In this document: piece by piece, positions 5,490 to 53,873 of the stretch
Layout of the letters: the number at the start of each line of letters is the position of its first letter
Position numbering within the stretch: the first letter of the stretch is position 1
Assembly (NCBI GenBank): GCA_009992235.1
Contig: JAACVZ010000004.1
Coordinates: 1-64,000, forward strand
Length of the DNA: 64,000 nt
Direction: 5' to 3'
Origin: Candidatus Saccharimonadota bacterium
Lineage (GTDB): Bacteria; Patescibacteriota; Saccharimonadia; Saccharimonadales; Saccharimonadaceae
Made by a program: the position numbers and the translations under genes
Notes under the pieces: generated by a model
Databases searched by the model: none
What the model saw: the letters and a program-made list of their open reading frames with translations, nothing else
What the model was told of the DNA's origin: nothing

Positions 5490-6522
<1,033 letters not shown>

Positions 6523-34720: not shown

Positions 34721-35413
34721 CTACCTTTTCTTCGCACTATGCGGCAACACGACCGTGACAATGACAATAGCAAGTAAGACGGCGAAGCCACACATTATTG
34801 AAGGTATACCCTTGACGGTTGATGGGTCGATTATATTGAAGAATGTTGTTGGCAATATGAACGACAGGTAGCCAATTGACATTCCAATTAAAGCTTTCTT
34901 GGCTTTGGGAATTTCTTGGCTCCATTTGAAGGCGAGGAATGTACCGACAAGCATCCAACCGTAATAGTAGATGATGTACGGCCAAACGCTGATGCTATCG
35001 GTCGAGAAGACGGCGTAGTTGGGCTGACAACTTTCGGCCGATACTGCTTGATTAACGAAGACAAAGAATACTAGAAAGGCGGCACAGGTTGCGTAAGCAA
35101 AGCTGAGTAGCGCGCGCGATTTTTTGTTGGCAATCGACAAAATAATATGTATACCAAGTGCCGGCAGAAGTGTTATCGAGGCATAGCCAAGTTTTGCCCA
35201 CTCGACGTTAGACAATCCAAGACCGCCACAAATCATGTACTCTGCTAACTGAAAGGTTCCCAGCGCCAGAAGTATGGACACCGCTAGCCTTGAGGTGGTT
35301 GTCATCTTGTATCGCCATATGGTGTAGAATGCGGCGCCAAATTCAAATAAAAAAGTTAGTAACATAACTGGTGGAGAAAAGCAGTAAAGCTTCCCCTGAT
35401 ATTTTTTAAGCAT
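34721..35413 (-). CDS. Seven-helix membrane protein divergent from heliorhodopsin
   Basis: The 230 residues form about seven membrane helices (GGLGLSNVEW lies in an outer loop; the conserved-looking tail is PHSAKKR). Two cysteines occur near CGG and SCQPNY. I do not recognise the family; it is similar in length and topology to the 7TM sensor modules of some histidine kinases, but no kinase follows. The ATG at 35413 is chosen because a minus-strand TATACT (35420-35425) ends 6 nt before it. The start lies 36 bp from the heliorhodopsin start, so the two are likely coregulated. Confidence 0.7.
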   Translation of the reverse strand: MLKKYQGKLYCFSPPVMLLTFLFEFGAAFYTIWRYKMTTTSRLAVSILLALGTFQLAEYMICGGLGLSNVEWAKLGYASITLLPALGIHIILSIANKKSRALLSFAYATCAAFLVFFVFVNQAVSAESCQPNYAVFSTDSISVWPYIIYYYGWMLVGTFLAFKWSQEIPKAKKALIGMSIGYLSFILPTTFFNIIDPSTVKGIPSIMCGFAVLLAIVIVTVVLPHSAKKR

Positions 35414-35448
35414 AACCCCAGTATACACCGCCGTGCTATATTAAAAGC
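35414..35448. promoter_or_regulatory. Divergent leaderless promoters of heliorhodopsin and the 7TM gene
   Basis: Minus-strand TATACT (35420-35425) and plus-strand TATATT (35437-35442) are each exactly 6 nt from their ATG. The two -10 boxes lie only 11 bp apart, so each -35 region falls on the opposite promoter. Confidence 0.65.
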
Positions 35449-36213
35449 ATGAGCAAAATTATCACAACAAAATCACTTCGTCGGTATAATATTTTTGCTG
35501 GGTTTCTACACCTGGCGCAGGGAATTGCCGTCCTTGTTTTAAGTAGGGAGTTCTTGTTACCTATAAGTGGTGCATTTCTAGATTTTAATTCGACGACTCG
35601 TGAGCTCGAACCTGCATCAACGGTACTTTTTGACCTGTCGCTGCCTCTATTGGTCGCGGCCTTCTTCTTCCTCTCGGCGGTTGCGCATTTTAGTATTGCA
35701 ACCTTTTATAACAAGCAGTATGTTGCACAGCTGGCAAGGGGCATGAATAAAGCACGCTGGGTAGAATACTCAATTTCCGCTAGCATAATGTTGGTCGCTG
35801 TCAGTCTGCTTGTCGGTATTTACGATGGCATGAGCCTTCTGATGATATTTAGCCTTGCGGCCATCATGAACCTGATGGGGCTGGTCATGGAAGTTCACAA
35901 CCAAACAACTAAGCGGGTCAATTGGCTGAGCTACTGGATAGGTTGTTTTGCCGGAGTTATTCCATGGTTAGTGATTGCATCATACTTACTCCTTGGAGCT
36001 GAACAGGGAAGCAAGGCGCCAGACTTTGTGTATTGGATATTCGTCTCAATCTTCATCTTCTTTAACTGTTTTGCGGTAAATATGGCGCTTCAATACAAAA
36101 AAGTTGGTCCCTGGAAAGACTATCTGTATGGTGAGTTTGTGTATATCGTCTTAAGCCTTGTCGCAAAATCTTTACTCGCCTGGCAGGTGTTCGCGGGAAC
36201 ACTTCGTCCGTAG
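35449..36213 (+). CDS. Heliorhodopsin (retinal-binding photoreceptor)
   Basis: Heliorhodopsins are light-sensing retinal proteins with inverted topology. The 254 residues match the family all along: LRRYNIFAGFLHLAQGI in helix A with His21, RWVEYSISASIMLVAVSLL in helix C with the counterion-type Glu106, and VYIVLSLVAKSLLAWQVF in helix G with the retinal Lys240. These correspond to Glu107 and Lys241 of the type member 48C12, and His21/His80 match positions reported there. Length and seven helices are usual. The mRNA is probably leaderless (TATATT, 6 nt). Rhodanese and NUDIX genes follow on their own promoters. No retinal-forming Blh gene is in the window. Confidence 0.93.
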   Translation: MSKIITTKSLRRYNIFAGFLHLAQGIAVLVLSREFLLPISGAFLDFNSTTRELEPASTVLFDLSLPLLVAAFFFLSAVAHFSIATFYNKQYVAQLARGMNKARWVEYSISASIMLVAVSLLVGIYDGMSLLMIFSLAAIMNLMGLVMEVHNQTTKRVNWLSYWIGCFAGVIPWLVIASYLLLGAEQGSKAPDFVYWIFVSIFIFFNCFAVNMALQYKKVGPWKDYLYGEFVYIVLSLVAKSLLAWQVFAGTLRP

Positions 36214-36237: not shown

Positions 36238-36504
36238 ATGAGTAACAAACGAATAATCATTGATGTCCGTGAGCCATACGAATACGCTATGGGCCACGTT
36301 GACGGTGCACTTAATATTACCGCCTCAGAGCTAATGTCAGGGTCAAAAAAACTTGAAGCTGTCGATAAAGACGCAGAAATAATCGTCTACTGCAAGACCG
36401 GTGGTCGGGCCAGTATGAGCGTTCAAATACTAAACCAGCTTGGCTTCAGAAATGTTGTTAATGGAATCAATGCCGCCCAAGTTGAGCAGAAGTATTTTGG
36501 GTAA
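36238..36504 (+). CDS. Rhodanese-like sulfurtransferase domain protein
   Basis: The 88 residues are a single rhodanese domain: DVREPYEYAMGHVDGALNI and the active-site loop YCKTGGRASMS with the persulfide Cys. A TATAAT ends 6 nt before the ATG (leaderless). The NUDIX gene overlaps its 3' end. It likely moves sulfur or senses redox state. Confidence 0.93.
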   Translation: MSNKRIIIDVREPYEYAMGHVDGALNITASELMSGSKKLEAVDKDAEIIVYCKTGGRASMSVQILNQLGFRNVVNGINAAQVEQKYFG

Positions 36505-36898
36505 CGTTGCCAAACTATTAATAATCGATCAAGATGATAAGCATCTGCTGATGTATCGAAGCGAACATCCTTATTTTGGGATAGACCCAGACCTTCCCGG
36601 AGGAACCGTAGAAGAGGGTGAGTCTATGTTGGAGACTATGATACGAGAGGTACAGGAGGAGGCTGGTATTATTATTGACGCCAATGATGCCACAGAGCTT
36701 TATTCGGGTGCAGACTATTCTTGGCACGGAACACACTATTCATTGTTTACGACAAAGGCAACCGTTAGGCCTGACGTTGTTATGAGCTGGGAGCACTCTT
36801 CGTACGAATGGATTGATCGAGAGGACTTTCTCGAAAAATCAAAAAACGCCAAAGACACATATATGCATATGGTGCACGATGTATTAAACCGTGCATAG
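36452..36898 (+). CDS. NUDIX hydrolase
   Basis: The NUDIX box is GGTVEEGESMLETMIREVQE then EAG. The domain begins at NVAKLLIID. The frame overlaps the end of the rhodanese gene; candidate starts are ATGs at 36452, 36461 and 36470 or a TTG at 36497, and none has a strong ribosome-binding site. I list 36452, but the TTG next to the rhodanese stop is equally possible. The substrate is unknown. Confidence 0.85.
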   Translation: MLLMESMPPKLSRSILGNVAKLLIIDQDDKHLLMYRSEHPYFGIDPDLPGGTVEEGESMLETMIREVQEEAGIIIDANDATELYSGADYSWHGTHYSLFTTKATVRPDVVMSWEHSSYEWIDREDFLEKSKNAKDTYMHMVHDVLNRA

Positions 36899-36903
36899 CT
36901 ATT

Positions 36904-38097
36904 TTAGTATTTAAACCGGTTCACCAAAACAAGCAGACCAGCGAGAGCGCCCATGAGAAGGCCGGCCTGTAGGGCTGTTTTTTCAGCTAGAATGAAGGCA
37001 AATAGCGCAAGAATCGCCCAGAATAGCATGCGCGATAGGTTGGAGACGAACATCATGTAACCCCAGTAGACGTCTCGGTAACCGGTGAACTCGGACGATT
37101 TTGCGTACTGACCTTTTGTGTATGCCATACGCACAGCTAAAGATGCCGGGTCGCTAGCCATAGATAAACCAACCGCAGCGCCAAATGATCCAGCTACTGC
37201 CTTCAAAGATCCAATAGCCGCTGTTACGACGGTACCTATTGTCAGCACTTTTCTGCCCTCACCTTTATCTACAAGCGTACCGTAGACTTTTGTCGCAAGT
37301 AGCGACACCAGTAGACCAATGGAAGCGATGAACCCTACGCCTAAATAAACACTTTCGCCAACTAAGAATAGAGCGATAAATAGTGGCCACACAATCATAC
37401 CGGCGACTTGTTCGAACCCGAGAGCTGCACTTGCAATCGCGTCGCGCTTTACCTTGGCCCAGGCAAAACCTTTTAGGGTTATTTTCTGCCTGGTACGAAC
37501 CGCTTCTTTGCTCGCCAGTAGTGGAATACCGCTCGCAAACACCATACCTATAGCTACGACTATGGCCATACGAATATCTGATAAATAAGCGATTAATCCG
37601 CCAATCATCGGCCCTAACACACCAGCAATCTTCGAAAGTTGAAACATGCGACTAAGCTCATGGCCAGCACTTTTGGTGTGTTGAATTTTAGAAAACTCAA
37701 TATGATACGCCGTAAAAAATAAACCCGCAGACAGTGCATCGAAGAGCGCTAGGACGGGTAGCGGCCAGTGAAACGCGGGGTAGGTAACAAGAAAAATTAA
37801 AAATACTCCAAGAAGCATGTTTGCGATTGTCATGGCGTGTTTTGGTCCAAACCGGGCCGTAAAGTGAGTTACAGGATAGTCGATGAGGGCACGGATGCCA
37901 TACGCCATCATATAGAACAAGGCAATCTGCAGGAGACCTAGCCCATTTTCATACAGATAAATTGGCAAGAAGATACCTATGAGGCTCAACCCAAGTGTTT
38001 TAATTGTCATGCTCACATACAGCTCTGTTAGGTCAGAGTTCTTTATTGTTTTCCAGGAATAGCGATGTGAAATAAGGTCACTAAGATGGGTTATCAT
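36904..38097 (-). CDS. MFS transporter
   Basis: The 397 residues have about eleven to twelve helices and an MFS-like arrangement (YDIRxx-type loop at VTHFTARFGPKHAMTIANM, and a second-half VYGTLVDKGEGRKV loop). A TATAAT on the minus strand ends 8 nt before the ATG. It is convergent with the NUDIX gene and divergent from the small membrane gene at 38154. The substrate cannot be told. Confidence 0.85.
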   Translation of the reverse strand: MITHLSDLISHRYSWKTIKNSDLTELYVSMTIKTLGLSLIGIFLPIYLYENGLGLLQIALFYMMAYGIRALIDYPVTHFTARFGPKHAMTIANMLLGVFLIFLVTYPAFHWPLPVLALFDALSAGLFFTAYHIEFSKIQHTKSAGHELSRMFQLSKIAGVLGPMIGGLIAYLSDIRMAIVVAIGMVFASGIPLLASKEAVRTRQKITLKGFAWAKVKRDAIASAALGFEQVAGMIVWPLFIALFLVGESVYLGVGFIASIGLLVSLLATKVYGTLVDKGEGRKVLTIGTVVTAAIGSLKAVAGSFGAAVGLSMASDPASLAVRMAYTKGQYAKSSEFTGYRDVYWGYMMFVSNLSRMLFWAILALFAFILAEKTALQAGLLMGALAGLLVLVNRFKY

Positions 38098-39409: not shown

Positions 39410-40524
39410 TAATCAATGAAACAATTTTCAAGCAACTACTACAAACAAACAACGCTGATCAGAAGTTGAGCATATATTTGCCGACTCACTCGGCAAGCTC
39501 AAGCCAGACAGTCAATGAAGATATCATACGCTTTAAGAACTCGTTAAAAGCGATACGACTTGATGAGGACTACGACGAGCTGGAGCTGTCTGAGACTATG
39601 GAGGCGCTTGAGGCGCTTATTGATGATGTCGAATTTTGGAAACACCGGACGCTCGGGCTGGCAGTTTTTGCTGACGCGCATGGGTACGAAGCGGTGTCGT
39701 TGACTCATGAGGTGACCCAGGCGCACTACATAGATGAGCGATATGTGGTTAGTCCACTTGCATCGATGTTAAGTTTTGGGGCTGGGTATTTTATTCTGGA
39801 AGTTAACCACACAAATCCACGGCTACTTCACGCGACAACATTTTCATGCGAAGAGATTAATGTTCCAGACATGCCCGATTCGTTTCAGTCGACGGTCGAA
39901 AATGTTGAGTATAGCAAAGAGCTACAGCACCAATCTGGTGGCACCGGTACATTCCACGGACACACCGATGATGCGGCAATTGAAGATGACGAGCGACGGT
40001 ATTATAAGTCTATCGCTCATGCTGTCGATGTGCACTTGATGCACGAAAGTCAAACCGAACCGCTGGTCATGGTGGGGGTTGAAGAGCGAGTAGCCGGGCT
40101 GCGTAAACAGCTTAAGTATGCACACGTTCTAGCTGATTATACTGAAGGCAGTAGCACCAGCATGAACGAGCAGGCGCTTCACGATCATACATATCCGCTA
40201 ATTGATAAACTGGACGATGTGCGTCGCCAAGCGATAGTTGATGAGTACGAAAAGAACGACAACACCCACGTCGTCGCTGGCGTCGATGACGTAAAAGCGG
40301 CCGTCGCCGAACACCGTGTTGAGAAACTTCTTCTTGAAGGTTTTCGTCGGACAACCGACAGTGTGCGCGGCGGGTACGATCCGGTTATTGTTTTTCAGCT
40401 TGATTACTACGACGATTCAATAGAAACGCTTGTGCGAGAGGCTATCGCACAGGGTGCTGAAACCGTTGCTCTAAGTGAGGGCGCGTTTGCCGACAAGGCA
40501 CCGCGAGCCATCTGTCGCTTTTAG
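39406..40524 (+). CDS. Bacterial eRF1-like (baeRF) family protein
   Basis: The 372 residues resemble bacterial relatives of archaeo-eukaryotic release factor eRF1 (baeRF families): an N-terminal domain (about 20-140), a central domain with a Gly-rich region (SGGTGTFHGHTDD) and a C-terminal L7Ae-like domain (VRGGYDPVIVFQLDYYDDS then AQGAETVALSEGAF). The catalytic GGQ of true eRF1 is not seen. The family is thought to act on stalled ribosomes or in stress responses; this is a family-level inference. ATGA overlap with the FMN reductase. Confidence 0.8.
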   Translation: MIINETIFKQLLQTNNADQKLSIYLPTHSASSSQTVNEDIIRFKNSLKAIRLDEDYDELELSETMEALEALIDDVEFWKHRTLGLAVFADAHGYEAVSLTHEVTQAHYIDERYVVSPLASMLSFGAGYFILEVNHTNPRLLHATTFSCEEINVPDMPDSFQSTVENVEYSKELQHQSGGTGTFHGHTDDAAIEDDERRYYKSIAHAVDVHLMHESQTEPLVMVGVEERVAGLRKQLKYAHVLADYTEGSSTSMNEQALHDHTYPLIDKLDDVRRQAIVDEYEKNDNTHVVAGVDDVKAAVAEHRVEKLLLEGFRRTTDSVRGGYDPVIVFQLDYYDDSIETLVREAIAQGAETVALSEGAFADKAPRAICRF

Positions 40525-40567
40525 CGACTATACCTTTCGAGGTCAGCATCTGATACTATATGAAGCA

Positions 40568-41293
40568 ATGCTTCACTATTCAGCGACTAAAATTCTTAAA
40601 GTGCTACTTCTGACAGTAGCCCTACTTGCGGTACTTCATGTTGGTGCGAGTATTATACTAGTTAACGATCCCAGTATGGATATCGCTACGGCTTCATTTT
40701 TTCAGTTGTTTAACATGGATAACGAGGTAAGCATTCCAACTTGGTTTGAGCAGATGTTACTAGCGGTTGCGGGCACCGTTGCTTTACTTATCGCTTATTG
40801 CGCTAGACAAAAAGAATCAGCAAACAGGGAGTGGCGCTACTGGCTGGGATTAGGATTAATCTTTGTTGGCCTCAGTATTGATGAAGGCGCTGGGGTTCAC
40901 GAGCTCTTCGGCTCAGTGGTGAGCTTTTTCACGGGAGACCTTTCTGGGACGATTTTTAACTTTAGTTGGGTAATTGCTGGAATCTTGTTTGTGGGCGCGG
41001 TTGCGGCCGTATTCGTAAGGTTTATTTTTGCACTGCCGCGAAGAACGTATATGTACCTATTCTTGTCGGCGGCATTATTCATTTCAGGCGCTATTGGCGC
41101 AGAGATGTTCGGGGGCTATCACGCCAGCAACATAGGTTGGGATTTCTCATATTCACTTTTCGTTTTGCTTGAGGAGGTGCTTGAAATGACAGGTATATCG
41201 ATATTTGTTTATGCACTGCTCGATTACGCAACTTCAAATAACATGAAGCTGACTTTAACGCGAAGCGAGGCAGCGGAGCCTGTGACACGATAG
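40568..41293 (+). CDS. Multi-pass membrane protein
   Basis: The 241 residues have six to seven helices. Acidic residues stand out within the membrane region: LSIDEGAGVHELFGS and LLEEVLEMTGI. The ATG at 40568 is preferred since the -10 TACTAT ends about 8 nt before it, while the longer frame from 40475 runs inside the baeRF gene. The repeated acid-His pattern suggests a metal or enzyme site, but the family is not recognised. It is not Blh: the HxxxH-type residues expected of that oxygenase are missing. Confidence 0.72.
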   Translation: MLHYSATKILKVLLLTVALLAVLHVGASIILVNDPSMDIATASFFQLFNMDNEVSIPTWFEQMLLAVAGTVALLIAYCARQKESANREWRYWLGLGLIFVGLSIDEGAGVHELFGSVVSFFTGDLSGTIFNFSWVIAGILFVGAVAAVFVRFIFALPRRTYMYLFLSAALFISGAIGAEMFGGYHASNIGWDFSYSLFVLLEEVLEMTGISIFVYALLDYATSNNMKLTLTRSEAAEPVTR

Positions 41294-43726: not shown

Positions 43727-45040
43727 ATGACACGAGTAGAACCCCGTCGACCAGGTGGATTCGCTGAATTTCTTCCAGGCGAACAAATCGCATTTAACGC
43801 AATGCTTACGACTATTCGTGATACCTACGAAAAGTACGGCTACGCACCGCTAGATACGCCGGACCTTGAGCGAACTGAAGTGTTGCTTGCAAAAGGCGGG
43901 GGCGAAACCGAACAGCAGGTTTATAGCTTTACTCGTGAAGGTTCAAAAACAAGCCTGACACTTCGATACGACTTAACGGTTCCTTTGGCTCGCTATGTTG
44001 CCGAACACGAGAGCGATCTTACCTTTCCGTTTCGCCGATATCATATTGGAAAAGTTCACCGAGCTGAACGACAGCAAAAAGGTCGTTTTCGTGAATTCTA
44101 TCAATGCGACATTGACGTCATTGGTTCTGAAAGCCCACTCGTTGATGCTGAGTTTCCTGCAATCATTAATGAAATATTCGAATCATTTAATTTTGGTGAA
44201 TTTACCATTCGACTTAACAACCGAATGATTTTGACGGGCTTCTTTGAAGGGCTTGGCTTGCGAGATGTATCGGCCGAAGTTCTGCGAGTTATTGATAAAA
44301 TTGACAAGCTTTCAGGCGAGGCTTTCGTCAGCGAACTTTCGGCATTAGGGCTCAACGACATGCATATTGCACGAGTTCATGACTTTATAGGAATTCGCGG
44401 CAGTAATAGTGAAATCCTTGAGAAGCTTAAGACAATTGATATTCCGTCTGAACAGTATCACCAGGGCGTCGCCAAGCTTGCGGCGGTTATCGACGCGCTT
44501 CAGGCTATGGGCATTCCCGAATCTAGGTACTGCGTTGATCTTCGTATTGCTCGCGGGCTCGATTATTACACCAGTACAGTTTACGAAACGACACTCGACG
44601 AATATCCGGACGTAGGGAGCGTGTGTTCTGGTGGTCGCTATGACAATCTTGCCGATAATTACACAAAGACCGAGCTTCCAGGTGTAGGCATCTCAATTGG
44701 CCTCAGCCGATTGTTCGCGAAACTTCGCGAAATTCCCGGTCTTATATCTGTCGATCGCCAATCGCCAGCGAATGTTATTGTTGTGCCAATTTCTTCAGAT
44801 CAAAACAAGTATGCCATAGAGGTTTCTGCCTTGCTTAGAGGCGCCGCTATTTCGACCGTATTGTTTGCCGATGACGTAGCAATGAAAAAGAAGTTTCGCT
44901 ATGCTGACAAGATGGGTTTTGCTTATGTCGTTATTGTTGGTGACGATGAAGTGCAGGCCGGCACCGTGTCTTTGAAGGACATGGAAACCGGCGACGCCAA
45001 GACTGTCTCGAAACAAGATCTTATAGCACGGTTGAAATAA
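43727..45040 (+). CDS. hisS: Histidyl-tRNA synthetase
   Basis: The 437 residues have the class II core: LTLRYDLTVPLARYV, RAERQQKGRFREFYQCDID (motif 2), IARGLDYYTSTVYE and GGRYDNLADNY, and a C-terminal anticodon domain (about 345-437). A TATATT ends 11 nt before the ATG. It is convergent with the carotenoid operon and overlaps crtEb by 20 nt. Confidence 0.97.
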   Translation: MTRVEPRRPGGFAEFLPGEQIAFNAMLTTIRDTYEKYGYAPLDTPDLERTEVLLAKGGGETEQQVYSFTREGSKTSLTLRYDLTVPLARYVAEHESDLTFPFRRYHIGKVHRAERQQKGRFREFYQCDIDVIGSESPLVDAEFPAIINEIFESFNFGEFTIRLNNRMILTGFFEGLGLRDVSAEVLRVIDKIDKLSGEAFVSELSALGLNDMHIARVHDFIGIRGSNSEILEKLKTIDIPSEQYHQGVAKLAAVIDALQAMGIPESRYCVDLRIARGLDYYTSTVYETTLDEYPDVGSVCSGGRYDNLADNYTKTELPGVGISIGLSRLFAKLREIPGLISVDRQSPANVIVVPISSDQNKYAIEVSALLRGAAISTVLFADDVAMKKKFRYADKMGFAYVVIVGDDEVQAGTVSLKDMETGDAKTVSKQDLIARLK

Positions 45041-45878
45041 TAAGCTGCAGGGTAATAACAAACCCAACAAAATAATTAATCCACAGGAATCGTTTCCAGC
45101 CCAACCGTGTCACGCCGGACGTTTTGTTTGATACGCGTGCAAACGGTATAACATTTACTGCGTAAACAAGCGCACAGGCGGCTATGGCGATATTTTGTAG
45201 TCCTGTACCTAAAACTACAATTGCTGCGAGTATGTATAGGACAGCAGAGAATAGAACGGTTCTTTGAGCCCCAAACACGGTTGCAACCGACTGAATGCCG
45301 GCTTTTTTATCTGGGATGATATCTTGGACTGCACCAAATGCTTGGCTGGCCATCCCCCAGAAAAAGAAGGCGATTACATACGGCCAGGCTTCAACTGGAA
45401 ATGCAAATAGGGAAAGAGCGTAAATAAATGGACCAACAAAATGAAGGCTTGAGGTGACGGCATCGAGAATTGGCTTTTCCTTAAATCGTAAACCTTTGAG
45501 GCTGTAGGCGACGACAAAAAACAAAACGCCAAGTAGCACGGCAAAACTTGTCGGGTTGCCGAGTATCGCTAGCCAGACAACGAACGGTAGGCACGAAATA
45601 AAGGACGATATCAGAATGAGCCGGTGATGATGTTTTGGTGTAACCGCACCTTCGACGCCGCCTTTGCGAGGGTTTTTGATGTCAGATTCATAGTCAAAGA
45701 CATCGTTTACGCCATACATTAATAGGTTATAGGGGATTAGGAAAAATAGTGTGCCAATCCAAAACATTAGGTCAAGCGCACCACCAAGAACGATGTAGGC
45801 AGCCGCAAAAGGGTAGGCGGTATTTATCCACGAAACTGGTCTAGAGGAGGCGAGTAGGAGCTTAACTTTTTCGTTCAC
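45021..45878 (-). CDS. crtEb: Lycopene elongase/hydratase (UbiA family, CrtEb type)
   Basis: The 285 residues are a UbiA prenyltransferase with eight to nine helices and two Asp motifs, NDVFDYESD and QDIIPDKKAG. The opening SRPVSWINTAYPFAAAY and KGGVEGAV are distinctive of CrtEb, which adds two C5 units to lycopene to make C50 flavuxanthin. It is the last gene of a six-gene crt operon in the order known from corynebacteria, overlapping crtYf by 17 nt. UbiA enzymes for quinones lack this signature set. Function is a strong inference from motif and context. Confidence 0.9.
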   Translation of the reverse strand: MNEKVKLLLASSRPVSWINTAYPFAAAYIVLGGALDLMFWIGTLFFLIPYNLLMYGVNDVFDYESDIKNPRKGGVEGAVTPKHHHRLILISSFISCLPFVVWLAILGNPTSFAVLLGVLFFVVAYSLKGLRFKEKPILDAVTSSLHFVGPFIYALSLFAFPVEAWPYVIAFFFWGMASQAFGAVQDIIPDKKAGIQSVATVFGAQRTVLFSAVLYILAAIVVLGTGLQNIAIAACALVYAVNVIPFARVSNKTSGVTRLGWKRFLWINYFVGFVITLQLIISTVL

Positions 45879-46173
45879 GACTCCCCCGCTTCCCTAGCCC
45901 GCGCCAGACACTAGGTACAATAATGCAGGCGAGCGCTGCGTAGAAAAAGTCTTCAACAGGAGCGTGGCCAATAAATATGCCAGTAAGCTTGCTTTCATCG
46001 TAACTCACGATGCCTGCAGAAATAATCAGTGAATCGAACAAGGCGGTAAACGCGAGCAGGATAAGTAGCGTGACCCAGAACGGCTTCGACGGACTTGTTG
46101 GCGTGCGCCAAATTAGCAGGGCGAGGGAAACGACAGCTAGAAAGACGACGTTGAGTATTAAGTACGTTGCCAT
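45862..46173 (-). CDS. crtYf: Lycopene/C50-carotenoid cyclase subunit f (CrtYf)
   Basis: The 103 residues are a three-helix lycopene cyclase domain with the Pro-x-Glu motif APVEDFFYAAL. It forms a heterodimer with the neighbouring CrtYe in actinobacteria; neither alone is active. It overlaps crtYe by 16 nt and crtEb by 17 nt. Confidence 0.85.
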   Translation of the reverse strand: MATYLILNVVFLAVVSLALLIWRTPTSPSKPFWVTLLILLAFTALFDSLIISAGIVSYDESKLTGIFIGHAPVEDFFYAALACIIVPSVWRGLGKRGSRERKS

Positions 46174-46472
46174 AGTTTCTCCGTCGTGCGATATACAATC
46201 AGCGTAAAATAGCTGAGAAATGTTAGGAAAAATAGCTCTTCAATCGGAAACTCTGGAGCTAAGAAAAGGCCAGACATGTAAGGCGAGTCTCCTGCAAAGA
46301 AAATGCCGAGTGCGATTCCAAGAACATCCCAGACAATGAAAACCGCAACGGCAACGAATACGGTAATAAGTGCGCGCCGCTTGTCTTTAAAAAAGGCGAG
46401 TGAGTATTTTCTGTCGATGATAACCATGCCGAAGAGTGAAACTAGAAGGCCGCCGAGGTATAGAAACGCCAC
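46158..46472 (-). CDS. crtYe: Lycopene/C50-carotenoid cyclase subunit e (CrtYe)
   Basis: The 104 residues hold three helices and the Pro-x-Glu-Glu motif FPIEELFFLTFLSYF. The start is GTG 46472: the crtI stop TAG and this GTG share one base, and GAGGAA lies before it. The longer frame from 46559 lies inside crtI. It should pair with CrtYf to cyclise C50 flavuxanthin or lycopene. Confidence 0.85.
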   Translation of the reverse strand: MAFLYLGGLLVSLFGMVIIDRKYSLAFFKDKRRALITVFVAVAVFIVWDVLGIALGIFFAGDSPYMSGLFLAPEFPIEELFFLTFLSYFTLIVYRTTEKLWQRT

Positions 46473-47995
46473 TAGCGCAGTTCCTCTATGTCTGTTAACG
46501 GTCCTTCGTCTTTTATGCCAGCAATGCGTTTGTAGGTGAGGTGTGCGCTCATGAGGCACATTGGTAGGCCTATGCCTGGTACTGTCCCCGCCCCAACATA
46601 GTACAAGCCCTTAACCTTCTTGCTTTCATTCGGAGTTCTGAAAATTACACTTTGTTGCAGGAGGTGCGATTGGCCACCAAAGGCGTTGTACTCCCAGGCG
46701 TTGTAGCGACTTTTGAAATCGTTTGGCCCAAACACACGACGAGAGACGATTCTCTCTGGAAGGTTTGGGGCGTCTATGATGTGGGCAACAGTTGCAATCG
46801 TGCGTGATGTCAGTGAGGCTAGTGCGCGATCGGTCAGGCTGACACCGGAAGGTATAGGAACTAGGATGAACAGATTTTCGTGTCCAGCGGGCGCCAGAGA
46901 ACGGTCGCTTTTGGTTGGGTTACATAGGTAAATAGACGCATGTTCGGGAATAGCCATAGTTTCGTAAATATCTCGGAAGTTTTCACGCCATTCATCGACG
47001 AAATATAGGTTGTGGTGTAGGAGCTGCGGAAGCTTGCCTTTGACGCCAAGTGATATAAGCACGTTGCTTGGGCCGGCCTGGCGTTTCTGCCAGTAGCGTT
47101 TTGGGAAGCTTCGGTGAGATGGCGAAAGTAGCGAGGTTTCGGTGTGGTGGAGATCGGCGTTTGAAATAACGATATCGGCACGCTCAACTTTCGAGCTGTG
47201 GAGTTTTACGCCAACCGCTTTTCCGCCTTCAACAACAATTCGTTTTATTGGTGAGTCGGTGTGATAGGTGATGTCATAGGGTTTTCCGAGCTCGACTAAA
47301 TCACTAACCAGCGACATCATACCGCGTTTTGGATAATAGACGCCGCTTTTAAAGTCGAGGTGACTCATGAGGCTATATATTGCTGGCGCCTGGAATGGTG
47401 AACTTCCCAAGAAAACCATATGGTATTCAAGAATTTGCTTGAGGCGTTGGTCGGTAAAGCTCTTTGAGACATAGCGGTCGAGTGTTTCGAGAGCCATGTA
47501 CAGGAGGTGCGGCGCCTTCTTTATAATTGACCAGTCAATAAGCTTGAAGATGTTTGTAAAGTTCGTATAAAGAAAGCGTTCGGTCGACAACTTATATATG
47601 AAGCTACTTCGCGAAACATACTGTCGGAGCATCTTGCCGGCACCGCGCTCTATCGATTCGAAAGTACGGGCATCTTCTTTTAGTGAACCCTCGATGATGA
47701 TAGGAGCTTCATTCTCAAAGAACACCTTATAGCCAGGCGATAAACGTTGGATGTCGAGACGATCTTTCGCAGAGGCATTGAACAGGCGATAGTACTGTTC
47801 GAAGACCTCGGGCATTAGATACCACGATGGACCGATGTCAAACGAGAAACCGTCCTGCGAGAAGGCCGATAGTCGGCCACCGACCGCTTCGTTTTTCTCA
47901 TATACGTCGACTTTATAGCCGGCTTTGCCAAGAATGTTAGCTAGCGCGATTCCGGCGTATCCAGACCCAATAATAATGGCACGTTTTTTGGTCAT
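46472..47995 (-). CDS. crtI: Phytoene desaturase
   Basis: CrtI turns phytoene into lycopene using FAD. The 507 residues have the N-terminal FAD loop IIIGSGYAGIALANILGKAG, EKNEAVGGRLSAF and the C-terminal carotenoid signature YYVGAGTVPGIGLPMCLMSA. The length is usual. The crtB stop overlaps its start as ATGA. Confidence 0.95.
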   Translation of the reverse strand: MTKKRAIIIGSGYAGIALANILGKAGYKVDVYEKNEAVGGRLSAFSQDGFSFDIGPSWYLMPEVFEQYYRLFNASAKDRLDIQRLSPGYKVFFENEAPIIIEGSLKEDARTFESIERGAGKMLRQYVSRSSFIYKLSTERFLYTNFTNIFKLIDWSIIKKAPHLLYMALETLDRYVSKSFTDQRLKQILEYHMVFLGSSPFQAPAIYSLMSHLDFKSGVYYPKRGMMSLVSDLVELGKPYDITYHTDSPIKRIVVEGGKAVGVKLHSSKVERADIVISNADLHHTETSLLSPSHRSFPKRYWQKRQAGPSNVLISLGVKGKLPQLLHHNLYFVDEWRENFRDIYETMAIPEHASIYLCNPTKSDRSLAPAGHENLFILVPIPSGVSLTDRALASLTSRTIATVAHIIDAPNLPERIVSRRVFGPNDFKSRYNAWEYNAFGGQSHLLQQSVIFRTPNESKKVKGLYYVGAGTVPGIGLPMCLMSAHLTYKRIAGIKDEGPLTDIEELR

Positions 47996-48801
47996 GATAT
48001 TCTCGCTTTCAATAATAATTGTAGCTTTCTGGCCCTCGGAACACGCACCCTTCGTGAAACCAGTGTTGATGTTGGTGTCTTTTCTATCGTATCTAGGAGA
48101 GCTGTGTAGTACAGGTAGCTTGCATACACCGCTTTTCGGGCCGACGGTGGTAGCTGGCGAAGTGCTGGCTGTGCCTTCGCAAGGTCATTTCGAACATCTT
48201 TAATAATGGCGCTCTTCGCTCTGTTGTTGAACTTCTCGAAGCTAACACTTGGGAAATAAACTCGGCCAAGTTCATCGTGGTCAGCGCGGATGTCTCGCAG
48301 GAAGTTAATTTTTTGGTAGGCCGATCCTAGTGCCTTCGCGCCATCTTCAAGCTGGTGGTAGGTATCGGCGTCGGTAAATATCTTGAGGCACATCAACCCG
48401 ACGACCTCTGCCGAACCATAAATGTATTGGTCGTACTCTTCCTGGGTGAAGTGAGTGGCCGTGAGGTCGGTTTTCATACTCTCAAAGAACGGGTCAATAA
48501 GTGTTTCGTCTATTGAAAAGTGTCGGGCGGTCGTTGCGAAGGCATGAAGAATTGGGTTTGAACTAAAACCACTCTTGCGAGCCTGATGTGTATCACGTTG
48601 CAGCTTTTCGAGTTGCTTGTCGGCATCCTTTTCCCTGTACGAGTCAACGATTTCATCGGCAATACGCACTAGTCCGTAAATAGCGTAAATGTGAGGCCGA
48701 ATTGATGGCGAGAAAAGAGTGCTGCTCATTGAGAATGATGTAGAGTAGCGAGTAGTGAGCTTTTTAGATAACTCGTAGCTGGTTTTGCCGTAAAGCTCCA
48801 T
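47992..48801 (-). CDS. crtB: Phytoene synthase
   Basis: CrtB condenses two geranylgeranyl diphosphates into phytoene. The 269 residues have the two Asp-rich motifs IADEIVDSY and LRDIRADHDELGRVYFP of squalene/phytoene synthases. It lies 4 nt after crtE and overlaps crtI by 4 nt. Confidence 0.95.
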   Translation of the reverse strand: MELYGKTSYELSKKLTTRYSTSFSMSSTLFSPSIRPHIYAIYGLVRIADEIVDSYREKDADKQLEKLQRDTHQARKSGFSSNPILHAFATTARHFSIDETLIDPFFESMKTDLTATHFTQEEYDQYIYGSAEVVGLMCLKIFTDADTYHQLEDGAKALGSAYQKINFLRDIRADHDELGRVYFPSVSFEKFNNRAKSAIIKDVRNDLAKAQPALRQLPPSARKAVYASYLYYTALLDTIEKTPTSTLVSRRVRVPRARKLQLLLKARIS

Positions 48802-48805
48802 ATAT

Positions 48806-49861
48806 TTATGAGCTCCTTGCCATGAGTATGTTAGTCAGACCTAAGAGTTCGGCTTGTTGGGTTGACGATGATAGTTCGGGCAGTGCCGAAAGGGCTTTCT
48901 TGTAATAGGTTTCGCACAATGTTTCAACTTCTTTTCTAGCTCCAGAGGCAATAAGGTCGGCCTTGAGTGAGTGTAGGTCACTATCGCTAGCCTGTTGGTT
49001 TCCGAAAACGGCGTTGAAATGAGCCGCTTGCTTTTCATTCATCTTGGTTTTATGAATTTCAATGAGTTTTGTCGCTTTGGCTTCGCGAAGGTCACCGAGC
49101 GTAGACTTCCCTGTTTCATTTTCGTCACCAAAAACACCCAAAAGATCATCCTGGAGTTGGAAGGCGATACCAATAGCTCCACCATAGGCTTCAAGCGCCG
49201 TGCAATCCTTTTCGCTGGCATTCGCACAATACGCCCCAGTGAGTAGCGGGCCAATGAACCCATAGCCAGCAGTTTTGTAGCGTGAAACTATTAGCGGTTC
49301 GTATGACATGTCTTTAACGAAAGCGGCCTCGACGTCCATGAACTCTCCGCCAATAACTTCGAAAATTGATGCGTGTAGGCGAGTGGTTATTTTACGAATT
49401 AATTCAGGTGAAATTGAGGACGATGATACAGCAAAAAAGGCTTCAGCGATAAGCGCATCACCGGCAATAATGGCAACGCTGTCTGCATGATGTCGGGCCG
49501 AGGCTTCGTCCAGCAGCGGTGAGTACTTATCGTTATATATTCCACTCATGTTCTTGTGGCCACGTCGCACCATGTCCTGGTCAATAATATCGTCGTGAAC
49601 CAGCATGGCAGTATGAATGAGCTCTTGAGCGCTAGCGACGGGGACGATGTCCTCCGAGAACGACCCGTATCCAACCATAGTCAAATATGGACGAAATCGC
49701 TTCCCGCCACTAGTTGTGACGCTAAGGATATTTTCCCAGAACTGTTTATAGGAGGTGTGCAGTGTATTCGCTTCATCAATGCGCTGTTGAATAAGGGCCG
49801 TAAGGTAGCTGTCGACCGCCTGAGTTGTGTGTTGCAAGAGCGCGCTGTGGGGACGAAGCAT
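48806..49861 (-). CDS. crtE: Geranylgeranyl diphosphate synthase
   Basis: The enzyme builds C20 diphosphate for carotenoids. The 351 residues have the two Asp-rich motifs of trans-prenyltransferases, VHDDIIDQDMVRRG and QLQDDLLGVFGDE. The ATG at 49861 (residue 17 of the longer frame from 49909) is chosen because a minus-strand TACAAT (49871-49876) with TTGCGC (49894-49899, 17-bp spacer) is 9 nt upstream. It heads the six-gene crt operon. Confidence 0.93.
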   Translation of the reverse strand: MLRPHSALLQHTTQAVDSYLTALIQQRIDEANTLHTSYKQFWENILSVTTSGGKRFRPYLTMVGYGSFSEDIVPVASAQELIHTAMLVHDDIIDQDMVRRGHKNMSGIYNDKYSPLLDEASARHHADSVAIIAGDALIAEAFFAVSSSSISPELIRKITTRLHASIFEVIGGEFMDVEAAFVKDMSYEPLIVSRYKTAGYGFIGPLLTGAYCANASEKDCTALEAYGGAIGIAFQLQDDLLGVFGDENETGKSTLGDLREAKATKLIEIHKTKMNEKQAAHFNAVFGNQQASDSDLHSLKADLIASGARKEVETLCETYYKKALSALPELSSSTQQAELLGLTNILMARSS

Positions 49862-49870
49862 AGTACTGTC

Positions 49871-49899
49871 ATTGTAAGGTAGGAGCCTCAACTGCGCAA
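49871..49899 (-). promoter_or_regulatory. Promoter of the carotenoid operon
   Basis: Minus strand: TTGCGC (49894-49899), 17-bp spacer, TACAAT (49871-49876), then 9 nt to the crtE ATG. Confidence 0.65.
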
Positions 49900-49915
49900 C
49901 TGGCAACAAAAACCC

Positions 49916-53294: not shown

Positions 53295-53330
53295 TTGTGT
53301 CTCTTTGCCATAGACGGGTATAATAAAAGA

Positions 53331-53873
53331 ATGCACACCGTGATACGCTTTATTATTGCTGGAATTATTGTAGCGAGTGGATTACTCGTTATGTTTGGGT
53401 TGTCTTCTGCCCGAGCTCAGTCTTCCGTTTTATCTAACGAACAGCTGTCGCTCATTCGTCAGAACTGTCAGAGTACCAAGAGTACCCTTAACCAGCTTCA
53501 CATGACCGACGCACTGCTTCGAGTTAACCGTGGTCAGGTGTATGAAGCGCTTTCGACGAAGCTTATGGACAGGTTTAATGCCCGACTTTCGAACAACCAG
53601 CTGGATAATAAGGCGACAGTGTCTGTGTCTACCAGCTATAACTCGGCATTGAATATTTTTAGGTCAAACTATAAGGCGTACGAAGAGCGACTATCCGATA
53701 CCCTAAAGATGGACTGTAGCGCCGATCCGTCGGGCTTTTATTGGGCAATAGACGATGCTCGTTCTAAGCGTGAGCGAGTCCACGGTGATGTACAGCGCCT
53801 TCACCGCCTGATTGATGATTACCGTTCGGCAGTAAACGACTTCCTGCTTAATTACGATAGGACACAGCGGTAG
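53331..53873 (+). CDS. Secreted coiled-coil protein
   Basis: The 180 residues have a signal peptide (cleavage probably after ARA, about residue 29) and a mostly helical, charged mature part with two cysteines. The ATG 53331 lies 6 nt after TATAAT; the frame opens earlier at 53295 without support. I do not know the family name. The next gene starts 3 nt after the stop. Confidence 0.75.
   Translation: MHTVIRFIIAGIIVASGLLVMFGLSSARAQSSVLSNEQLSLIRQNCQSTKSTLNQLHMTDALLRVNRGQVYEALSTKLMDRFNARLSNNQLDNKATVSVSTSYNSALNIFRSNYKAYEERLSDTLKMDCSADPSGFYWAIDDARSKRERVHGDVQRLHRLIDDYRSAVNDFLLNYDRTQR

Follow-up and report, generated by a model that had tools for sequence, protein, structure and literature searches.

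A Saccharibacterial heliorhodopsin with a complete retinal pocket in a genome without a recognizable retinal-forming enzyme

Introduction

Heliorhodopsins (HeRs) are known from the bacterial class studied here: 80 HeRs of Saccharimonadia have been on record since 2022, and SLVAK is among the commonest motifs (PMC9166423). Bulzu et al. listed Patescibacteria among the phyla with histidine kinases near HeR genes (PMC8612252). Sensory and partner-binding roles have been published for other HeRs (PMC8612252, PMC9529153, PMC11109279), and viral HeRs can transport protons (PMC9448325). Proteins of known structure include TaHeR from a Thermoplasmatales archaeon (PDB 6is6 and 7u55) and the actinobacterial-type HeRs 48C12 and 9ljj. 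Saccharibacteria also possess proton-pumping type-1 rhodopsins (SacR). These rhodopsins and TaHeR take up retinal rapidly from outside; the Saccharibacteria genomes are without blh, and the retinal is thought to come from actinobacterial hosts (PMC9296517).

Here, we analyzed a HeR gene in a stretch of 64,000 nucleotides (the window) with which contig 6 of a Saccharibacterial genome begins. The genome comprises 691 kb in 6 contigs and is listed as 96.72% complete with a contamination of 0. The source organism is probably a tiny, host-dependent episymbiont.

Results and Discussion

Identity and fold of the protein

The HeR open reading frame was found intact in the 64-kb window, exactly as earlier described:

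35449..36213, plus strand: heliorhodopsin, 254 amino acids, ATG start (open reading frame, family profiles, alignment and AlphaFold model)

Membership of the HeR family was defined as a whole-length match above the cut-off of the curated models PF18761 and NF038020. The window protein matched PF18761 with 326 bits (E = 1.5e-97; cut-off 26.7) in the Pfam profile search and the NCBIfam HeR equivalog NF038020 with 330.7 bits (cut-off 100), in both cases over its whole length. In a phmmer search, residues 7 to 254 matched TaHeR (PDB 6is6) with an E value of 4e-79, and the best hits were HeRs. The type-1 rhodopsin profile PF01036 did not match the window protein, the helix G motif of which is SxxxK, not DxxxK. 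The comparison of heliorhodopsin with type-1 profiles that a sequence-only reading of this DNA had proposed thus bore out its identification of a 254-residue heliorhodopsin.

We then examined the residues around the chromophore. The window HeR keeps His21, His80, Arg103, Glu106 (the counterion), Ser236 and Lys240 (the retinal Schiff base). In helix C, the Glu counterion follows Arg-Trp (R103-W-V-E106); H21 and H80 are the pocket histidines, and the SxxxK retinal-binding motif of helix G reads S236-L-V-A-K240. We aligned 34 HeR sequences drawn from Patescibacteria, Chloroflexi, Actinobacteria and archaea. Four residues (H80, E106, S236 and K240) were invariant throughout and H21 was nearly invariant, implying selection for retinal binding in the window HeR and its relatives. 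The alignment also placed His21, Glu106 and Lys240 where the earlier reading had put them, with the helix G lysine kept.

An AlphaFold model of the window HeR built from the 34-HeR alignment had a pLDDT of 92.5 and a pTM of 0.88. It predicted helices at residues 7-31, 65-84, 101-121, 127-154, 160-185, 192-217 and 225-251, with the long A-B beta hairpin of the HeR fold formed by strands within residues 36-64. The best PDB matches of the model were ten HeR chains, while type-1 rhodopsins were weakly matched. TaHeR shares 54% identity and the same pocket residues with the window HeR (TM 0.90-0.91). The 48C12 and 9ljj proteins have the same fold (TM 0.84-0.87) and the same motifs, but are 41-43% identical to the window HeR and sit on a distant tree branch. 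When Lys and Arg residues were tallied on the sequence, using the helix limits of the AlphaFold model, about 13 fell on the side formed by the N-terminus together with loops B-C, D-E and F-G, versus about 4 on the opposite side. This distribution, together with the homology to TaHeR, would fit the inverted orientation with a cytoplasmic N-terminus.

Descent and spread

A maximum-likelihood HeR tree was built from 89 rows. In it, the window HeR grouped with L002 and L020 at a fork with support 100/89, and L003 joined them at 97/92. The enclosing clade of 25 rows is largely Saccharibacterial (support 95/90). Chloroflexi and actinobacterial HeRs fell outside this clade, as did TaHeR, which pairs with an archaeal HeR. 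The closest relatives fetched were L002 (79% identity, full-length) and L020 (84%, partial). The L020 HeR sequence is the same as that of G010 (L078), and the L003 sequence is the same as that of G004 (L071, L098).

HeRs are common in Actinobacteria, which are also likely hosts of Saccharibacteria, and one congener (G016) bears an actinobacterial-type HeR, as might be expected if the window HeR were a contaminant or a recent actinobacterial transfer. However, actinobacterial HeRs in the alignment were mostly 42-46% identical to the window HeR, versus the 79% of L002, and the tree placed the window HeR among its Saccharibacterial relatives. The flanking genes have Saccharimonadales homologs, the GC and GC3 of the HeR gene resemble those of the neighboring genes, and the listed contamination is 0. 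We therefore regard this origin as having a negligible probability; for the window HeR, the tree and the flanking homologs rule it out. The earlier, putative assignment of the DNA to Saccharibacteria stands, and the tree with known HeRs that had been suggested as a check supports it. Taken together, sequence, tree and model establish that the window protein is a genuine HeR with all the chromophore-pocket residues and that it is of Saccharibacterial descent.

PF18761 matches were found in 106 of the 295 sampled genomes of the order, a count that takes in divergent PF18761 homologs too, and in 84 of the 143 genera. Within the genus of the source organism, HeRs were patchily distributed, occurring in 6 of 17 genomes (G000, G004, G005, G010, G011 and G016), and belonged to at least three lineages: the window type, the actinobacterial-like type of G016, and a second G011 copy that groups with Asgard archaeal HeRs. 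The patchy spread and the several lineages point to repeated gain and loss. The sequence-only reading had held that a HeR in this group would be notable. With the 80 published Saccharimonadia HeRs and the 106 matching genomes found here, that view is out of date. The window HeR shares its family, bacterial class and SLVAK helix G motif with the HeRs of PMC9166423, from which it has no essential difference. It is one more member of an already known kind in its class and carries little weight on its own.

The source genome has one PF18761 copy. Other Saccharimonadales genomes have two or three such genes, which belong to different lineages: G011 (L069/L097 and L094), G037 (L072 and L095) and G043 (L068, L096 and L091). 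The HeR genes L099 (G005) and L078 (G010) lie in two frames or have an internal stop, reflecting decay or assembly errors.

Neighboring genes and transcription

The following features surround the HeR gene:

34721..35413, minus strand: multi-pass membrane protein without known family, divergent from HeR (homolog and profile searches)
35437..35442, plus strand: -10-like hexamer TATATT with TGC before it, 6 nt 5' of the HeR ATG (sequence; predicted promoter)
36238..36504, plus strand: rhodanese-domain protein, 88 amino acids, 24 bp 3' of HeR; a separate TATAAT immediately precedes its ATG
36476..36898, plus strand: NUDIX hydrolase overlapping the end of the rhodanese gene (profile match)

The likelier start of the divergent gene is the ATG at 35413, which has TATACT just upstream, rather than the GTG at 35428. 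Its product had no Pfam or NCBIfam match and represents a Saccharimonadales family (L101-L110) of about 235 amino acids found in 17 of 61 relatives, including the source genome itself. We considered the divergent protein as a HeR partner and rejected it, since its homologs lie away from HeR in other genomes. A conserved operon partner was likewise rejected: neighbor clustering across about 55 Patescibacterial HeR loci gave no neighbor that was frequent, and NUDIX homologs were near HeR in only three other loci (L020, L024 and L094).

It could be proposed that HeR forms one unit with the divergent membrane protein, the rhodanese and the NUDIX hydrolase, for example in a light-controlled redox or nucleotide-cleaning response. 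The gaps are short (24 bp to the rhodanese gene and 35 bp between the likely divergent start codons), the NUDIX association recurs at the three loci named, and redox proteins have been reported as enriched around HeR genes (PMC8612252). However, we consider such a unit quite unlikely, because none of these neighbors is frequent at the HeR loci, the divergent protein is found apart from HeR elsewhere, and the rhodanese gene has a -10 element of its own.

TATAAT-like hexamers lie just before the ATG of the HeR, divergent and rhodanese genes alike. Throughout the window, a hexamer of this kind was found 3-9 nt before the ATG of 21 of the 64 genes (5 of them with a perfect TATAAT), versus 2 of 58 internal-ATG controls, and this -10 signal was seen only when start codons served as anchors. 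When the surroundings of HeR were scanned for promoters and terminators, the counts did not differ from those of shuffled sequences. The putative -10 element at 35437..35442 suggests that the HeR transcript may be leaderless. From the excess of hexamers over controls, leaderless transcription is likely to be widespread in the source Saccharibacterium, and HeR could be expressed alone. Other genes with a hexamer near the start include 5490-6482 (minus), 36904-38097 (minus) and 53295-53873 (plus).

Elsewhere in the window, the gene at 40475-41293 (plus) encodes a membrane protein without a Pfam or NCBIfam match. Its acidic and His stretches (SIDEGAGVHE, EMFGGYH and LEEVLEMTG) could be a metal site.

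Supply of retinal and the carotenoid gene cluster

We searched the genomes for enzymes that could supply retinal. Blh (PF15461) had no match in the source genome, a negative that is weakened by the lack of a match in the control genomes, including HeR-bearing actinobacteria taken as a positive control. Blh was above the cut-off in none of the 295 genomes of the order. No RPE65-type oxygenase (PF03055) was found in the source genome, although the control genomes matched. A type-1 rhodopsin (PF01036) was likewise not found in the source genome; no control genome matched, making this negative weaker than that for RPE65. At a completeness of 96.7%, a gene may also have escaped these searches. With neither a Blh nor an RPE65-type oxygenase found beside HeR, the genome showed no self-sufficient retinal system.

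The earlier reading had noted that no Blh was encoded in the window. This statement held and could be extended to the assembled genome by the whole-genome blh search that had been suggested, although that search had no working positive control. What had been overlooked is a carotenoid cluster in the same window, which we found through a search for phytoene synthase. The cluster is a run of six genes on one strand (45021-49909, minus), 9 kb from HeR, with crtE-crtB-crtI, two cyclase subunits and a UbiA gene:

48806..49861, minus strand: crtE-like prenyl diphosphate synthase (family profiles)
47992..48801, minus strand: crtB-like phytoene synthase (PF00494, E = 6.5e-48)
46472..47995, minus strand: crtI-like phytoene desaturase (TIGR02734, 472 bits, cut-off 238)
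46158..46559, minus strand: lycopene cyclase subunit, CrtYc/Ye type (TIGR03462, 50.8 bits, cut-off 39.4)
45862..46173, minus strand: lycopene cyclase subunit, CrtYd/Yf type (TIGR03462, 63.3 bits; PF18916)
45021..45878, minus strand: UbiA-family prenyltransferase, putative CrtEb/LyeJ-type lycopene elongase (NF009608, 396 bits)

Translation of the crtE-like gene more likely begins at the ATG at 49861, with TACAAT upstream, than at the TTG at 49909. PF00494 was present in 41 of the 295 genomes of the order, and the same six-gene run was found in 15 of the 18 crtB-bearing Saccharimonadales relatives for which the surroundings were fetched.

The C50 carotenoid clusters of Corynebacterium have a gene order of the crtE-crtB-crtI-crtYe-crtYf-crtEb type, and the window cluster has the same gene order as these actinobacterial clusters. 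The UbiA protein is 50% identical to the product of an Arthrobacter locus. From the gene order and this identity, we infer that it may act as a lycopene elongase of the CrtEb/LyeJ type, which would imply C50 carotenoids. The cluster product would most likely be a C50 carotenoid with a membrane or photoprotective role, a function separate from that of HeR.

On the other hand, heterodimeric lycopene cyclases of this type can yield beta-carotene in some actinobacteria. With a complete crtE-B-I-cyclase set 9 kb from HeR, the organism might make beta-carotene, cleave it with an unrecognized enzyme and so supply its own retinal, HeR and the crt genes being one light-response module. We judge this very unlikely. 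The last gene of the cluster, the elongase-type UbiA, argues for C50 products, neither a Blh nor an RPE65-type enzyme was found in the genome, and HeR and crtB (PF00494) occurred together in 18 genomes versus 14.7 expected (Fisher test, 295 genomes, p = 0.17). As this co-occurrence is not beyond chance, a linkage of HeR with the carotenoid genes was rejected. No titles on heliorhodopsins with a carotenoid antenna turned up in a literature search.

Lycopene elongase genes are also on record in a Baikal Saccharibacterium. However, the lyeJ-crtD-cruF genes of the Baikal Patescibacteria are genes for acyclic bacterioruberin and do not form one cluster (PMC9948471), whereas the window cluster has a two-part cyclase and would be expected to give a cyclic C50 product.

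The isoprenoid precursors were also considered. A search for GHMP-family kinases gave no match in the source genome (G000), while 14 of 14 control genomes matched. The result argues against the mevalonate route as well as the MEP route and is in line with the report that, outside Gracilibacteria, only the C10-C20 isoprenoid steps are present (PMC9166423). The C5 or prenyl precursors for the carotenoid cluster are probably imported, and the retinal for the window HeR is likely made elsewhere and imported as well. Scavenging of retinal, which the sequence-only reading had named as a possible source, is supported by the failure to find a retinal-forming enzyme in the genome and by the published retinal uptake of TaHeR and of the Saccharibacteria type-1 rhodopsins (PMC9296517). 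In this respect the source organism resembles the SacR-bearing members of its class, whose genomes are also without blh. SacR itself differs from the window HeR in rhodopsin family and in its opposite membrane orientation, and none was found in the source genome.

The genome thus encodes a HeR with its retinal pocket intact as well as a full carotenoid cluster, but neither a recognizable retinal-forming enzyme nor a GHMP kinase, so that both pigments would depend on imported molecules. Such pigment import would be a testable form of host dependence in a likely episymbiont.

Proposed function

We consider it probable that the window protein is a functional Saccharimonadia HeR that serves as a non-pumping light sensor, obtains its retinal from outside and is patchily kept in the genus. 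HeR would be expressed as its own unit from the leaderless promoter and placed in the membrane with the N-terminus in the cytoplasm. All-trans-retinal from a host or a neighboring organism would then be taken up by HeR, because the genome has no recognizable retinal-forming oxygenase. Light absorption would drive a slow, non-pumping photocycle, and the signal may be relayed by contact with another protein rather than by ion transport, by analogy with other HeRs (PMC8612252, PMC9529153, PMC11109279). The neighbors of the HeR gene, which are not conserved, point to no partner protein. Proton transport by viral HeRs means that a non-pumping mode is not guaranteed for the window HeR.

The main rival to this sensor function is a retinal-free membrane role, in which the opsin works mostly without retinal, for example as a phospholipid scramblase, and senses light only incidentally or conditionally. 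Lipid scrambling that needs neither light nor retinal is on record for bacterial, archaeal and mammalian opsins and has been proposed to explain opsin-bearing genomes without the last retinal gene (PMC12805836). The failure to find a retinal-forming enzyme in the source genome would agree with such a role, as would the many HeR homologs of the same order without the retinal lysine. However, the text of PMC12805836 does not mention heliorhodopsin, and the lysine, the counterion and the pocket His and Ser residues are invariant or nearly so in the window HeR and its relatives. We consider the retinal-free role unlikely and retain the light sensor as the preferred function of the window HeR.

Homologs without the retinal lysine

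In Saccharimonadales, we collected 32 divergent PF18761 homologs (L080-L093 and L111-L130; for example, L084:1503-2489, minus, and L113:439-1218, plus). Arg103 was kept and the Glu counterion was lost in all 32, His21 was lost in 30, and the retinal lysine was lost in 19, where R, Q, A, V, L, S, E, W or I replaced it; an alignment of homologs this distant is uncertain at single positions. The lysine-less homologs are possibly retinal-free HeR-like proteins.

Among type-1 rhodopsins, the idea of opsins that have no lysine (Rh-noK) is already known. A HeR counterpart of Rh-noK was the subject of no title in a brief literature search, which is not proof of absence. A broader proposal is that the Saccharimonadia HeR scaffold has a retinal-independent membrane role, such as lipid scrambling or partner binding, with a series running from full HeRs without their own retinal supply to the lysine-less set. 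We regard this proposal as quite improbable. The lysine-less homologs across the order could help to show which roles of the HeR fold depend on light and which do not. The divergent homologs were not one well-supported group, and a core of 22 rows had support of 99/97.
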